Source of the DNA: Bacteroidota bacterium
GTDB taxonomy: Bacteria; Bacteroidota; Bacteroidia; UBA8524
DNA: 64,000 nucleotides
Assembly: GCA_008933805.1 (NCBI GenBank)
Contig: WBUH01000004.1
Location: 124,001-188,000 of the forward strand
Direction: 5' to 3'
The notes beneath the pieces are model-generated. The model saw only the letters and a list, made by a program, of their open reading frames with translations, was not told where the DNA came from and did not search any database. The translations under genes and the position numbers were made by a program. Of the stretch, positions 12,201-62,729 are shown piece after piece. Numbering within the stretch: position 1 is the stretch's first letter; each line of letters begins with the position of its first letter.

Positions 12201-15200
12201 CGTCGTATCGACCAGAACGACTTTGAGGCTGCCAACATTGATTATGTAGAGATTTGGATGATGGACCCTTTCCTAACAGGGTCAAACGGAACCATACAAG
12301 ACGGTAAGTTTAACTCGAACAACCTTTCGGGTGGTTCGCTATACTTAAATCTTGGTTCAGTATCAGAAGATGTGTTGCGCGATACCCGTAAGAGTTTTGA
12401 AAACGGACTACCCAAACCCAATACCCCGCTCCCGTTGATTGATACTACAGCGTGGGCTATTGTTCCCAACGTTCCTGCCATTAACAATGCCTTTGATGCC
12501 GACCCTGATGTGCGTGATGTACAAGACGTGGGGCTAGACGGTATGACCGATGCAACTGAACGTGTAATATATGCATTGTATTTAGATAGTATGCGTACCG
12601 TGCACGGTGCTTCATCAGCCGCATATCTAAACGCTCTTGAAGACCCTGCTCGTGATAATTATAAATTCCATAGCAGCGGTTCTTTTGATGCCCAAAGCTT
12701 GGGTATTTTGCAACGTCACCAGCAAATAAACGGCCAAGAAGGTAACTCAAAACCTGCTACGTTCAGGCCTGACGGTTATCCTGTAACCCGCACCAACCAA
12801 CCCGACGACGAGGATATTAACCGCGATTTCAGCTTAAACATTACTGAAGAATACTACCAGTATAAAGTTGATTTGAAACCCGGCTCATTGGTGGTGGGTA
12901 AAAACTATGTGACCGATAGCGCATCTGTACCTGTAACATTAGCCAACGGACAAGTAGAGCAGGTAACCTGGTACCAATTGCGTATTCCTATTAACTCTTA
13001 CAGCCGCAAAGTGGGCAATATCAGCGATTTTAAATCCATCCGTTTTGCGCGTTTATTTCTTAAAGATTTTGACCAACCCGTTGTATTGCGTTTTGCACAA
13101 ATGCAACTGGTACGTGCCGATTGGAGGCGTTATACCAAGCCGCTTAGCGTAGGTGTGCCAAACCCTCCCGGTTCGCCCGGAGATAACACCACCTTCTCGG
13201 TATCTACTGTAAATATTGAAGAAAACGGTACCCGTGTACCTGTAAACTATGTATTACCTCCCGGTTTCTTCCGTGAGTTGGATGTGACTACTCCTAACAA
13301 CGTACAACAAAACGAGCAGTCGCTATCGGTACGTTTTTGTAACCTGAAAGACGGAGATGCCCGCGGAGTATTTAAAACCACCCGTTTTGATATTCGTAAC
13401 TACAAACGCTTACGCATGTTTGTGCATGCTGAAGGTGAAGACAATAACCTTAGAAACGGTGATGTAAAGGCCTTTATACGTTTGGGTACTGACCTTGAAA
13501 ATAACTATTACGAATATGAATTGCCTTTGCTGGTAACACCTAATAACAGCCGTGATGCCCAACAGGTATGGCCCAGCGAAAACGAAATAAATATTGCCCT
13601 TGAAGAGTTTTATCTGGCCAAACAATTGCGCGAAAATGCTAAAGCCCCGCTAACACAGGATTTTGTGTATGATATGGGCGGCGGTAAGCGTATTACCCTA
13701 AAAGGTTTGCCTGATATGAGCAACGTGCGGGTAATTATGATGGGTGTGCGCAACCCTTTGAAAAATGATAACCCCGGCGCGGATGACGGTTTAGAAAAAT
13801 GTGGTGAGATTTGGTTTAACGAATTGCGTGTGGTTGAATTTAACAACCAAGGCGGTGAAGCAGCTACTGCAAGGTTAGTAACCAAACTGGCCGATTTAGG
13901 TACCTTTACCATATCGGGTAACTACCAATCAATAGGTTGGGGTGGTATTGATAAGAAGTTGAACGACCGTAGCCTGAACGAGATTTTCTTGTACGATATG
14001 CAAACCTCGTTGGAGTTGGGTAAATTCTTCCCCGCCAAGTGGGGTATTACTGTTCCCTTCTTTATGCAACGCGGCGAGCAGTTTATCCGCCCTAAATACA
14101 ACCCGCTAAACCCTGATATTCTTTTAAGCACTACCCTGCGTACTGCACAAACCGAAGAGCAAAAACAAGAGATTTTAAATGCCGCTGAGGATTACACCTC
14201 AAGGCGCAGCTATAACTTTACCAACGTGCGCAAAAACCGCACGGGCGGAGGTACTGCCAAACTGTGGGACATTGAAAACATTAACGGTAGTTTCTCGTTC
14301 CAAGAAATATTCAGGCGCAACCAGCAAATTGCTGCCAGCTTGCAACGTACTTGGCGCGGTAGTGTAGGTTACACTTTTGCTACAGCAGCTAAAAGCATTG
14401 AACCCTTTAAGAAAATTAAAGGCGGTAAATACATGCAATTGGTGCGTGATTTTAACTTCACCCTTTACCCGCAAAGTTTCTCGGTAAGGGCGGATGTTGA
14501 CCGTTATTATGCACGTTTGATAAACCGTAACAACGACGGCCCGTTGACTATCGTGCCCATTTTGTACGATAAGAACTTTACCATGAACCGCGTGTATGAT
14601 ATGCGGTGGGATTTGACAAAATCATTGAAAATTGATTACCAGTCTACCGCCAATGCGCGTATTGATGAACCTGTGGGCCGTATTGATAAGAACGAAGACC
14701 CCAGCAAGGTGGATACGATTCAAAACAATTTAATTGGCTTGGGGCGTACTACTAACTTTACCCAAGTAACCAACGTAAACTATACGCTTCCGCTTGCTAA
14801 ATTGCCTTTAACAGACTGGATTACTGCAAGTACGCGTTATAGTGCTAACTATGGTTGGACGACCGCCCCTCCTGCTACATCGTTTTTGGGTAATACCATT
14901 CAAAACTCACAAAACTACTCGTACACCGCGCAGTTTAATATGATGAACTTGTATAACAAGTTCCCCGCTTTGAGACGTATCAACCAAAACCAGCCTAAAC
15001 AATCAAAGGCTGAGCAAAAAACCGATACGGAAGAAGAAGAGGGTGAAGGCGAAGACAAAGACAAGAAAAAGAAGAAAAAGAAAAAAGAGGAATCTCCCCT
15101 TTCAGGCTTTGGTACTGCTGTAGCCAAAACGTTGATGATGCTTAAAAATGCATCGGTTAACTATACTTCTACCAAAGGTACTACGCTGCCCGGTTTCAGG

Positions 15201-19133: not shown

Positions 19134-20396
19134 TTATCCTCTCAAAATCCTTACAGGGTCTATTTTTGCAGCTTTTCGTGAAGGGAACCATCCTGCAAAA
19201 AAGGTAGTGAGTATACCAAAGGCTATTCCAAAGGCATAGTGTTTCACCTCAAAGGCCACCGGAAAATGATCCATTGCTAAAAACTCACCTCCATCAAACG
19301 GTAACGAGTTTAAGAATTTGCTCACGACAAACCCAATCACCAACCCGAGTAATGCCCCGCTAATACCTATTATTACTGCTTGCGACATAAAAATGCTTAC
19401 CACATCTTTACCTGCAAACCCTGTAGCTTTTAGTATGGCTATGTCTTTCATCTTCTCGTTAATAGTCATACTCATAATGTTGTAAATACCGAAACCTGCC
19501 ACAATCAGCAGCGTGGTTACAACAACAATGGTAAGTGCATTACGTATCACAAAGCTCACTAATATGGTAGCGTTGGCAGTTTCCCAATCCTCGGCAGTAT
19601 ATCCAAAACTGCTTGCATATTGGGGTGCAAAACTCTTAGCTTGGTTAATGTCTTTTAGTTTCAGGTTAATATCAGTAATGTAGCTGCTGCTTTGTCCCAG
19701 TATTTTTTGCACGGTTTGTAAGGTGGCATAGCTGCGGCTATTATCTATTGCCCCTACCCCGTAGGAAAATGTACCTGCTATGATTAGGGTAAGCGTTCCG
19801 CCCAAAGGGGTAGAAACGATTACTTTATCGCCCTTCTTAACGTTCAGTTTTTTTGCCAACCCAATGCCCATCAAAATGGCATCGCTACCGGCCAGCAAGT
19901 CTTCAATTTCGCCGCTGCGCATTTTGGGTTTGAGGTCAAACATCCTGTCTTCGGCCAAAATATCAACTCCCGTAAGTATGCCGTTTAGCTGGGTAGGACC
20001 GTAGTTATAAAACACCTGCGAACTAACCGTGGGCGACACAGCCAATACTTCGGGCTGCTTTTTTAACTGTTCGGCCACGTGCAAGCCGTTTTTTAGTTTT
20101 GGTAACTCGTTTTTTGGGCGAGGGCTGTGTATCACCGTCAGGTGGTTAGGATTGTTATAATATTTATCGGTAATGGTAGTTTTGGCCAGCTCCACATCGT
20201 TGTATAACCGTATATGAGCCGTAGAAGTAAGCGTAGTTTCTGAAAGGAAGTCGTTTATCCCCGTCATAAAACTAATCATGATGATAAACATGGCAATACC
20301 GAAGGTTACCCCCAAAATAGCCACGATGGTGGTTTTTTTGCGCGATACCAGGTGTGTGGTAGCAATGTGTATGGGCAGGTAGGGCAAAATTTTCAT
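19134..20396 (-). CDS. ABC transporter permease (FtsX/MacB fold)
   Basis: 420 residues. One N-terminal helix (VAILGVTFGIAMFIIMISF) is followed by a large periplasmic domain (about 50-270) and three C-terminal helices (TLLIVAGFGIYNIMSMTINE, IIGISGALLGLVIGFVV, and AFGIAFGILTTFFAGWFPSR). The sequence ends in PSRKAAKIDPVRILRG, the classic MacB_PCD/FtsX terminus. It lies 9 bp after the adaptor gene. With the adaptor and ATPase it should form a mechanotransmission-type exporter that moves a substrate across the outer membrane with an outer-membrane channel not encoded here. Confidence 0.92.
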   Translation of the reverse strand: MKILPYLPIHIATTHLVSRKKTTIVAILGVTFGIAMFIIMISFMTGINDFLSETTLTSTAHIRLYNDVELAKTTITDKYYNNPNHLTVIHSPRPKNELPKLKNGLHVAEQLKKQPEVLAVSPTVSSQVFYNYGPTQLNGILTGVDILAEDRMFDLKPKMRSGEIEDLLAGSDAILMGIGLAKKLNVKKGDKVIVSTPLGGTLTLIIAGTFSYGVGAIDNSRSYATLQTVQKILGQSSSYITDINLKLKDINQAKSFAPQYASSFGYTAEDWETANATILVSFVIRNALTIVVVTTLLIVAGFGIYNIMSMTINEKMKDIAILKATGFAGKDVVSIFMSQAVIIGISGALLGLVIGFVVSKFLNSLPFDGGEFLAMDHFPVAFEVKHYAFGIAFGILTTFFAGWFPSRKAAKIDPVRILRG

Positions 20397-20404
20397 AACT
20401 AGCC

Positions 20405-21505
20405 TTACTTGGTTATTATTTGAGTATTGGCATCTACACCACCTGTTACCTCAATGTATTCAAAGTTTTCAATGCCTTTTTGCACTTTTACTTTCTTATC
20501 ACCATCCGCCGTTTTAACCAATACGGTATCACCGGGCATCATTACGCTTTTGGGCAAGCACAACACGTTTTTCTTTTCTTGTATAATGATGTTTGCTTCA
20601 ATGTTAGTTCCTGAGAAAATGGCGGGCAATGTTTCAATCATTGCAGCATCTACCCTAAAGGCAAAGTCTTTCTTATTCATGGCAGGATAAATGCGGGTTA
20701 CTTTAGCCTTAAATATCTTCTCGCCGTATGCTTCAATTTGCACCAACACCTGCTGCCCGATTTTTATCTTTTCTATATCGCTCTCGTCAACACTCATTTT
20801 CAGTACCACATTTTCAGCATCGCCGATAATGGCTATTGCTTCGCTGCGACGCACAACCTCGCCTTTCTCTTTCAGCAAATCATACACGCGTCCCTTCGTT
20901 CCGCTTTTTACCAAGTAATTCGCTACGTCATCTTGCGTTATCTTATACTGGCTTTGGGCATTTTGTAAGGTTACGTACAGTTGCGCACGTAAGTTTTCAA
21001 TCCGTTGTTTGGTGGCTTTGTAATCGTTTTGAGAGTTGATATAGGTTAACTCCGCCTTTTCAAAATCAGACTTTTTAATTGCATTCTCATTATATAGACG
21101 TTTGTAGCGCACATAGTTAGTGCTATCAATCTGCAAACGGCTTTTCAGGGTGTTCAGTTGTGTTTTCAGTTCTTGCAAGGCAGGTGAGTTTTCTCCATAG
21201 TTTTGCTGGGCGGTCTTGTATATCTCTTCTGCTGAATATAAGCGGGCTTCGGTAGCATTGCCATCTACCCTCAACAACGGTTGTGAAGTGCCTATGGTAT
21301 CCCCTTCGGCTACAAATATTTCAGCAATGGTGCCATCGGCCAACGAATACAGTATAAATTGGTTTTGGGGTTCAAGTACTCCGCTGGCATATACCACTTC
21401 GGTAATATCTTTTGATTGGGGAGTAACCGTGTTTACTTTTTTCTTGCAAGAGATGGCAACCAGTAGCAGCGACGATAACAGAAAAACTATAGGGGTTAGT
21501 TTCAT
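20405..21505 (-). CDS. efflux periplasmic adaptor lipoprotein (MacA/HlyD family)
   Basis: 366 residues beginning MKLTPIVFLLSSLLLVAISC, a lipoprotein signal with Cys20. The biotinyl-lipoyl half-motifs (TIAEIFVAEGDTIGTSQPLL and GRVYDLLKEKGEVVRRSEAI) flank a long coiled-coil hairpin (about residues 95-190, KTAQQNYGENSPALQELKTQ onwards). A beta-barrel domain and membrane-proximal domain follow (SDIEKIKIGQQVLVQIEAYG). It is the first gene of the operon adaptor-permease-ATPase-kinase-regulator. It bridges the inner-membrane permease to an outer-membrane channel. Confidence 0.92.
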   Translation of the reverse strand: MKLTPIVFLLSSLLLVAISCKKKVNTVTPQSKDITEVVYASGVLEPQNQFILYSLADGTIAEIFVAEGDTIGTSQPLLRVDGNATEARLYSAEEIYKTAQQNYGENSPALQELKTQLNTLKSRLQIDSTNYVRYKRLYNENAIKKSDFEKAELTYINSQNDYKATKQRIENLRAQLYVTLQNAQSQYKITQDDVANYLVKSGTKGRVYDLLKEKGEVVRRSEAIAIIGDAENVVLKMSVDESDIEKIKIGQQVLVQIEAYGEKIFKAKVTRIYPAMNKKDFAFRVDAAMIETLPAIFSGTNIEANIIIQEKKNVLCLPKSVMMPGDTVLVKTADGDKKVKVQKGIENFEYIEVTGGVDANTQIITK

Positions 21506-61473: not shown

Positions 61474-62502
61474 CTATTGGGCGGTTCTTACTTCATATAA
61501 CCCAACTGCCTTTCCCAACTTGTTTTTAATCCGTTGCTGAAACCTTCGTGGTGATAGCACCTTCATCCGTTCGCCAAAGCCCAGTATTTCGCGCTCCAGC
61601 TCAAAATTCATCACCACATTAATAGTAATATAAATACCTTCCTCATCTTGTCGCCTCACCTCTTGTGAGGGATGCAGGGGTTTGGTAATCACATACGGTG
61701 CGTTATCCTTATCCACCCACAGTTCAATAAGCTGCGGCCGGTCTTGCAATGTTTTAGTTACGCCAATCACATCGTCAAAAAACGTGTGCGGGTTAAAGGC
61801 AGCTTCCACAAAAGGCTCGCCGGGCATCTCACTAAATCCAACAATGCGGTCAAGTGCCAACAGTGTAGTAGTGGTTTCCTTATGGTCTTTACGTCTGCCC
61901 AATAAAAACCAGCGGTTGCGGTACTCCTTCAATAAATACGGATACAGCACCAATACCGTAGGCTGTGTTTTCTTAAACGATTGGTAAGTAATCAATAACG
62001 GTTTTTTACTCACCAATGCCCTGTGCAAAGGGTCAATATGCTCCAGCCCCTTCAACAATTCATTCTTCTCAAAATCAATGTACGATACCCCCTTGTGTTG
62101 CTGTTTATAAATCTTGTCCTCCAAGCGGCTCACCATTTCGGTAAGCTCATCAAAATAGCTAAAGCCCTTAAACTGTTTCAATACCCCCACTACTTCCGTC
62201 AGCGTGTCCACATCCTGTTTACTCAGCGGGTTGCTGGTAATGCTGTAATTGCGGTCGTCGTAGCTGTAAAACTTCTTATCCTGCACCACAATGGGTGCAT
62301 TGTAGCCCAACTTATCACTGCGCATATTCTGCAAATCAAGCTGCACCGTGCGGCGGCTCACGCCTTGCGTAATGCCCTCGTACTCGTACAATGCATTTGC
62401 ACAGGCTTCCACAAGGTCGTCAAGCGTCCATTTTCTAAAGCGGTTTCGCAGGCATTGGTCGATGGTTTTATAGCGCAAAAGTGCCAGTTTGTTTAAAGGC
62501 AT
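61474..62502 (-). CDS. WYL-domain transcriptional regulator, divergent from the Ro protein
   Basis: 342 residues. The N-terminal winged helix (KLALLRYKTIDQCLRNRFRK, WTLDDLVEACANALYEYEGI, then GVSRRTVQLDLQNMRSDKLG) reads as a DeoR-like HTH. The WYL domain (about 160-235) has LLITYQSFKKTQPTVLVLYP, and YRNRWFLLGRRKDHKE with WFL in place of WYL, plus the terminal WCX region (ELEREILGFGERMKVLSPRR). WYL proteins sense nucleic-acid ligands or nucleotides and control DNA-damage, CRISPR and RNA-repair loci. Two mirrored operators in the 227-bp gap to the Ro gene suggest it controls both genes. Confidence 0.9.
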   Translation of the reverse strand: MPLNKLALLRYKTIDQCLRNRFRKWTLDDLVEACANALYEYEGITQGVSRRTVQLDLQNMRSDKLGYNAPIVVQDKKFYSYDDRNYSITSNPLSKQDVDTLTEVVGVLKQFKGFSYFDELTEMVSRLEDKIYKQQHKGVSYIDFEKNELLKGLEHIDPLHRALVSKKPLLITYQSFKKTQPTVLVLYPYLLKEYRNRWFLLGRRKDHKETTTTLLALDRIVGFSEMPGEPFVEAAFNPHTFFDDVIGVTKTLQDRPQLIELWVDKDNAPYVITKPLHPSQEVRRQDEEGIYITINVVMNFELEREILGFGERMKVLSPRRFQQRIKNKLGKAVGLYEVRTAQ

Positions 62503-62527
62503 GGTTAAAAACGGGGTTATTTACATC

Positions 62528-62535
62528 CAAAACTA
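62528..62535 (-). promoter_or_regulatory. -7 promoter element TAGTTTTG of the WYL gene
   Basis: Minus-strand TAnnTTTG match. Operator 1 lies 5 bp upstream of it, inside the expected -33/-7 spacer. Confidence 0.6.
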
Positions 62536-62540
62536 CAAAA

Positions 62541-62565
62541 TACTACGCAATGTATTTGCGTACTT
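62541..62565. promoter_or_regulatory. operator 1 of the WYL-Ro intergenic region
   Basis: 25 bp: TACTACGCA-N7-TGCGTACTT, an inverted repeat with 7-bp perfect arms (TACGCAA/TTGCGTA). The reverse complement of operator 2 aligns with it over all 25 bp, with both half-sites conserved and the 7-bp centre different. Confidence 0.72.
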
Positions 62566-62641
62566 CTTCAATTTTCATTTATCATTTAACATTTATTTCA
62601 ATGATATTAAGTAAGTTAAGTAAATATTTATAAAATACTTT

Positions 62642-62666
62642 AACTGCGCAATTCGGCTGCGTAGTA
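62642..62666. promoter_or_regulatory. operator 2 of the WYL-Ro intergenic region
   Basis: 25 bp: AACTGCGCA-N7-TGCGTAGTA, in opposite orientation to operator 1. The TACTACGCA half faces the Ro promoter, just as in operator 1 it faces the WYL promoter. 76 bp separate the two. Confidence 0.72.
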
Positions 62667-62672
62667 CGTCCC

Positions 62673-62680
62673 AACCTTTG
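62673..62680 (+). promoter_or_regulatory. -7-like element AACCTTTG of the Ro gene
   Basis: One mismatch to TAnnTTTG, 6 bp after operator 2 and 49 bp before the Ro ATG. The leader carries a strong Shine-Dalgarno AAAGGAGG (62713-62720). Confidence 0.45.
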
Positions 62681-62712
62681 TATCAGCAAAACAGCTAAAA
62701 AGAATTAAAACA

Positions 62713-62720
62713 AAAGGAGG
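62713..62720 (+). promoter_or_regulatory. strong Shine-Dalgarno AAAGGAGG of the Ro gene
   Basis: AAAGGAGG with 9 bases to ATG 62730. It is the strongest ribosome-binding site seen in the window and fixes the start. High translation on induction would fit a stress-response protein. Confidence 0.75.
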
Positions 62721-62729
62721 ACACAAAAC

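Follow-up and report, generated by a model that had tools for sequence, protein, structure and literature searches.

The gap between a WYL-domain regulator gene and a divergent Ro60 gene, in the 64,000-nucleotide stretch of DNA analysed here (the window), carries two operators at which the WYL protein very probably binds. Taken together, the computed evidence, namely the sites and their conservation, the content of the regulon, the co-variation of recognition helix and operator, the promoter geometry and a DriD-like fold, makes it quite probable that a DriD-type WYL regulator turns on RNA repair, its targets in this genome being Ro and possibly a spare tRNA-Asp gene. The features concerned are collected in Table 1.

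Table 1. Features of the WYL–Ro locus (window positions unless a locus handle is given).
Feature	Position	Strand	Remarks
WYL regulator gene, 342 aa	61474..62502	-	N-terminal winged HTH, helical linker, WYL, WCX
Putative recognition-helix codons, WYL wHTH residues 50-61, RRTVQLDLQNMR	62320..62355	-	AF2 model helix 50-61
Q54 codon of WYL	62341-62343	-	co-varies with operator sequence
Putative -7 box, WYL promoter, TAGTTTTG	62528..62535	-	TTTG starts 12 bp past operator core
Operator A, TACTACGCAATGTATTTGCGTACTT	62541..62565 (core 62544-62562, TACGCA-N7-TGCGTA)	.	WYL side; conserved upstream of WYL in relatives
Operator B, AACTGCGCAATTCGGCTGCGTAGTA	62642..62666 (core 62645-62663, TGCGCA-N7-TGCGTA)	.	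Ro side; over -33 region of Ro promoter; basis: target-side geometry kept in two-operator loci
Putative -7 box, Ro promoter, AACCTTTG	62673..62680	+	TTTG starts 13 bp past operator core
Shine-Dalgarno-like AAAAGGAGG	62712..62720	+	ahead of Ro start codon
Ro60/TROVE gene, 511 aa	62730..64000, beyond window end (stop L007:4265)	+	Pfam TROVE 1.7e-31
tRNA-Asp gene	L007:4371-4446 (outside window)		behind Ro; 47 bits; ARAGORN/Rfam

A sequence-only reading of this gap had proposed two mutually inverted 25-bp sites, each next to a promoter element and each presenting the same half-site to its promoter. The sequences and coordinates of both sites proved correct, the promoter elements are present on the strands proposed, and the half-site TGCGTAGTA is oriented toward the promoter at both operators. 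The core of that reading was thus right, while its account of promoter geometry and of the scope of the system turned out to be incomplete. The two sites are complementary to each other at 72% over 25 nt, and each is near-palindromic around a 7-bp centre. Nowhere else in the 4.3-Mb genome is TACGCA-N7-TGCGYA matched perfectly; the TRCGCA-N7-TGCGYA type is likewise found at two sites genome-wide, both of them in the WYL–Ro gap. Three further, unrelated matches appeared when the pattern was widened to YRCGCA-N7-TGCGYR, none of which (0/3) has the T/A ends on both sides. No operator was found near the single rtcB of this genome, and rtcB was therefore rejected as a trans target here.

The operator is conserved well beyond this genome. 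In 60 relatives, the nearest homologues share 46-65% identity with the WYL protein, and of ten such loci examined closely, nine have one or two operators upstream of the WYL gene. Among 80 further homologous WYL loci across Bacteroidota, 71 have an operator no more than 330 bp ahead of the WYL start and 74 have one within 700 bp; a recognisable operator within 330 bp is missing in nine, and 28 have two operators. TRCGCA-N7-TGCGYA occurs 89 times in the 23.9 kb upstream of these WYL genes, versus 20 times in 1.34 Mb of flanking sequence, and the majority of those 20 matches are themselves promoter-proximal to RNA-repair genes. Centres of other lengths (3-6 and 8-12 bp) yielded 0-1 upstream matches each in the 80 loci, and the reversed control pattern yielded none. 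Ro is missing in most relatives that carry the WYL gene, and the operator accompanies that gene irrespective of its divergent partner; where the WYL–Ro pair itself is kept (G044, G048, G050), so are both sites, as the sequence-only reading would require. This operator is generally absent from more remote WYL homologues, those with less than about 40% identity. One such homologue (37%; L050:1300-5578, the same as L021) adjoins a Cas10-type CRISPR gene and has two TGTGCA-N7-TGCACA sites upstream, in the same operator architecture.

The strongest computational case for the WYL protein itself reading the site comes from co-variation between its recognition helix and the operator. The putative recognition helix follows the pattern S-x-R-T/S/A-x-Q in nearly all WYL members. 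In one clade (14 rows, support 100/99), R replaces Q54 through a single change on the tree, and the loci of this clade with an operator have TGTGCA-N7-TGCACA or a near form in 12/12 cases, those at L198 and L204 being imperfect. The symmetric TGT form is found in 0/107 Q54 loci, where the operator is of the TRCGCA type. Residue and operator switched together just once in evolution, and all descendants that have an operator retain the change. Because Q54R and the change from TRCGCA to TGTGCA go together, the WYL protein is very probably the binder of both sites, and residue 54 versus operator position 3 offers a testable specificity code.

Promoters of Bacteroidota have a -7 box with the consensus TAnnTTTG, and the position of its TTTG relative to the operator differs between the two sides of the gap. 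On the target side, TTTG lies at +13/+14 from the operator in all 28 two-operator loci, in 24 of the 34 loci where a single operator faces an RNA-repair or tRNA gene, and in 17/19 secondary or trans operators. The target-side operator spans the -33 region, in which the TTTG box is absent, and a -33 box cannot be recognised in the Ro promoter itself. The spacing toward WYL differs from relative to relative: TTTG is at +13/+14 in 3/28 two-operator loci, and TAnnTTT commonly lies 14-18 bp past the operator, so positioned in many relatives that the half-site TTGCG can double as the -33 box of the WYL promoter (TTG-N19-TAnnTTT). These patterns modify the sequence-only reading. It had placed the sites within the spacer of each core promoter, but the target-side operator reaches beyond the spacer alone and extends over the -33 region, its distance to the -7 box being fixed. 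Nor are the two promoters equivalent when relatives are compared. Here, the Ro promoter follows the 13-bp rule, and the 12 bp on the WYL side come close to the target-side geometry; owing to this resemblance, simple autorepression is not clear here.

Where operators are paired, most are spaced by 100-103, 109-114 or 121-122 bp, and intermediate distances are almost lacking; the pair in the window is spaced by 101 bp. Nine switches between spacing classes are needed on the tree. Clustering of the pairs at a 10.5-bp phase (R 0.77) exceeds that of all jittered controls, although phylogeny lowers the independent count. This suggests that paired sites hold a fixed helical phase, as in cooperative binding or a DNA loop, and looping between them would fit such spacing.

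The WYL protein resembles DriD, a WYL activator of Caulobacter crescentus (PDB 8tp8, 8tpk, 7tzv, 9pfq, 9pfv), in fold as well as in its probable site. Pfam finds WYL (1.6e-10) and WCX (9.7e-11) domains, and the AF2 model (pLDDT 83) adds an N-terminal wHTH and, with low confidence, a linker of three helices (95-109, 117-135, 153-164), giving the wHTH – three-helix linker – WYL – WCX architecture that it has in common with DriD. DriD tops both aligners at an identity of about 14-16%: its structure 8tp8 is the best Foldseek match of the model (E 1.4e-13), and VIA aligns the C-domain with Z 15.6 over 185 residues at 3.6 A and the whole chain with Z 14.9 over 258 residues at 11 A, the latter value indicating that the domains are differently placed in the WYL model. 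DriD binds ATACGAC-N7-GTCGTAT, a target that overlaps the -35 of promoters with a poor -35 at a constant distance from the -10; the operon lying divergently to the driD gene is under its positive control (PMC12340889). The system in the window likewise has a palindrome with a 7-bp centre and a regulator gene divergent from its target; judged from the promoter sequences, it also appears to have a site over the -33 of a promoter poor in that element at constant distance from the -7. The two differ in the half-site (ATACGAC versus TRCGCA), in the targets (DNA-damage genes for DriD; RNA repair, tRNAs and Ro here) and possibly in the ligand, which is ssDNA for DriD, and, unlike DriD, the present system often has two phased operators. 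A WYL regulator elsewhere in the set (L079:10001-11737) carries a fused C-terminal PhyH (phytanoyl-CoA dioxygenase) domain, and other WYL proteins of similar length (570-581 aa; L086, L096, L100, L131, L132) may share this fusion.

In relatives, the genes divergent from WYL, identified by Pfam or, for tRNA genes, by ARAGORN/Rfam, follow one theme: among the 80 loci, RtcB occurs at 48, Ro at 22, slipin/Band-7 at 22, RlaP pairs at 15, RNA ligase and PNKP at 4-5 and at least four tRNA genes at seven. Secondary operators are found directly ahead of Ro (L079, L087, L088, L104, L107), RtcB (L079, L096, L121, L127, L132, L137, L140), RlaP (L100), a Hen1-N-domain gene (L124) and slipin (L072, L075), where the operators are again paired, with spacings of 112 and 111 bp. 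Predicted trans operators were borne out in G044, whose WYL–Ro island lies on a contig separate from those with an operator 34-44 bp ahead of the start codons of rtcB (contig C74) and of an RlaP pair (contig C19). The closed module envisaged by the sequence-only reading appears to hold in the present genome, with two sites genome-wide and none near rtcB, whereas elsewhere the regulon is not closed and takes in many more genes. In three R54 genomes, a search for trans operators gave a clear copy at the WYL locus alone. Weaker operator-like matches in G044, G022, G042 and G050 (L147-L149, L151) fell mostly inside unrelated reading frames and were left uncounted.

In the genomes checked, the tRNA genes of the WYL islands are additional to others elsewhere in the genome (11/44 in G044, about 15/51 in G449 and about 19/45 in G022). 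Dense arrays of about 10-20 tRNA genes occur in several islands (L040:7654-9402, L039:7157-8997, L064 and L119, about 13011-14577), an array flanks WYL on both sides at L063, and Myroides phaeus has six tandem tRNA-Glu(ttc) genes at about 105-bp spacing (L135, about 19926-20530). Behind Ro in the island of G050, a T4 Rnl1-type RNA ligase and a PNKP-type kinase/phosphatase are encoded (L041:9513-11540). A YrlA-like RNA in the divergent gap of L044 (7602-7708; RF02553, 51.5 bits, E 1e-8) scores below the Rfam gathering threshold, as do YrlA-like matches near WYL (L047:7562-7663, L045:6540-6643) and near the Ro genes of relatives (L039:2813-2935, L064:197-439); some YrlA-like matches come from genomes without a detected Ro gene. 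That one operator is a signature of RNA-repair genes throughout Bacteroidota, and of spare tRNAs and Y-RNA-like genes as well, points to a dedicated RNA-damage response in the phylum.

The Ro protein of the window combines its TROVE domain with a vWA-like C-terminus (vWA_Ro60 match 3.4e-4, under the cut-off of that model). A strong Shine-Dalgarno sequence precedes its gene, and the same is seen at L087, L088, L095, L099, L104 and L107; GGAGG stands ahead of 7/26 Ro genes, compared with 11/786 background ORFs and 2/231 genes from the rest of the regulon. Shine-Dalgarno sequences are normally missing in Bacteroidota (PMC6847099), and Ro translation may depend on ribosomes with a free anti-SD. 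Beside this Ro gene, no YrlA-type RNA was found at E<=5 in L007 1-8000, where a tRNA-Asp gene was the only RNA match. It is not the sole tRNA-Asp gene of the genome, since a second copy lies on contig C3 (L234). This low-scoring extra tRNA-Asp is followed, just past the window end, by a tyrosine-recombinase-like integrase gene (L007:4371-5874), and the two could possibly mark the attachment site of an integrated element.

On these grounds we propose that the WYL protein acts as a DriD-type dimeric transcription factor on the palindrome TRCGCA-N7-TGCGYA, with one operator at its own promoter and the other over the -33 region of the Ro promoter. The WYL domain would take up an RNA-damage product, a natural guess for the ligand by analogy with RtcR and from the content of the regulon. 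So loaded, the protein at the Ro promoter would recruit RNA polymerase and switch on Ro and possibly also the tRNA-Asp behind it, which may be co-transcribed with Ro; at the site of its own gene, it would autoregulate, probably negatively. In relatives, a single RNA-damage regulon under the same operator would comprise RtcB, RlaP nucleotidyltransferases, RNA ligase/PNKP and Hen1-domain genes as well as slipin, tRNA sets and YrlA-like RNAs. Counting against the proposal are the single origin of the helix-operator switch, the nine loci of 80 with no recognisable operator within 330 bp, the lack of Ro in most relatives that have the WYL gene, and a fold that repressors also possess.

Other explanations of the two sites fare less well. 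Short degenerate palindromes arise randomly, and matches to the operator with one mismatch are dispersed through the 4.3-Mb genome, but chance similarity or a dispersed repeat is ruled out for practical purposes by genome uniqueness and conservation: the only two perfect copies share one gap, and neither the 89-versus-20 enrichment, with most of the 20 close to promoters of RNA-repair genes, nor the N7 specificity fits such an origin. An operator sequence by itself does not identify its protein, so the palindromes might be bound by a separate, unlinked regulator for which the WYL gene is merely one target. We consider this improbable, given that the operator precedes WYL in 71/80 loci with any neighbour, that Q54R and the operator switch coincide with zero exceptions, and that DriD, the nearest fold, likewise binds an N7 palindrome.

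The more serious rival, possible though doubtful, is that the WYL protein represses from the -33 of Ro and of its own gene and is released upon RNA damage. BrxR and CapW, which have the same domain order and share the fold, are repressors; in Anabaena, the RHH repressor TrcR keeps a 26-tRNA operon silent, along with rtcB and a slipin gene, until translational stress sets in (PMC10272220); and the WYL promoter of many relatives may take the TTG of its -33 from the right half TTGCG. Against repression stand the target-side operator in the place of the -33 box, with no TTTG box remaining there, the near-constant distance to the -7 box (13-14 bp, 28/28), which repression does not need, and the activator DriD as the best structural match. 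Activation at the target promoter is accordingly somewhat favoured over repression, because the target-side geometry and the closest fold both match the DriD activator.

Several known systems overlap with parts of this picture. TrcR resembles it in that its regulon unites rtcB with a gene of the slipin family and with a large operon of spare tRNAs, but it is a demonstrated repressor of the unrelated ribbon-helix-helix family, acts in cyanobacteria on another operator and is not known to control Ro or RlaP (PMC10272220); no ribbon-helix-helix was found in the WYL protein by Pfam, AF2 model or Foldseek. Salmonella RtcR, the sigma-54 activator of rsr-yrl-rtcBA, controls Ro (Rsr), Y RNAs and RtcB and has been linked to damaged tRNAs (PMC7790460). 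It is a CARF-AAA+-HTH protein, whereas the 342-aa WYL protein lacks the CARF and AAA+ domains, with Pfam giving WYL and WCX alone, and would act at promoters with a Bacteroidota -7 box. BrxR and CapW share wHTH-WYL-WCX, autoregulation and inverted-repeat operators by their own promoter, but the BrxR operator, which lies downstream of the promoter, is built of 11-bp repeats around a 5-bp centre (PMC9122601), in contrast to the 7-bp centre over the -33 here, and both proteins govern phage-defence islands. The mycobacterial WYL activator SiwR activates from a 19-bp imperfect palindrome between -35 and -10 (PMC10693628); SiwR and PafBC serve genotoxic or oxidative stress genes through another motif, and PafBC is a heterodimer with sigma adaptation.

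WYL regulators, Ro, RtcB and RlaP are already known, as are rtcB-tRNA regulons under TrcR and RtcR. In the papers searched, no earlier description of a WYL-RtcB/Ro/tRNA regulon or operator in Bacteroidota was found. Burroughs and Aravind 2016 is reportedly a survey of RNA-repair gene neighbourhoods, and the WYL–RNA-repair gene linkage may have been partly described before; novelty is likely for the operator, for the specificity switch and for the promoter geometry. RNA-damage sensing beyond the RtcR and TrcR lineages is little understood, and, to our knowledge, the inducing signals identified so far for WYL proteins are linked to DNA.

Because one operator that can be searched for labels the regulon throughout Bacteroidota, its targets are predictable genome by genome; the operator also indicates reserve tRNA sets and Y-RNA-like genes as parts of the response. 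Whether there is an RNA counterpart of SOS, and whether a WYL domain senses RNA ends, become directly testable questions, and culturable genera with the system include Pedobacter, Chitinophaga, Mucilaginibacter and Dyadobacter. We regard it as an evenly balanced prospect that the system is a general RNA-damage response of Bacteroidota, the counterpart of SOS, in which a DriD-type WYL sensor of broken RNA acts through a single operator. If so, it would activate RtcB, RNA ligase with PNKP, a Hen1-domain protein and RlaP, along with the Ro/Y-RNA-like machinery, slipin and a reserve tRNA gene set, and the WYL–Ro pair of the window would be its minimal form.
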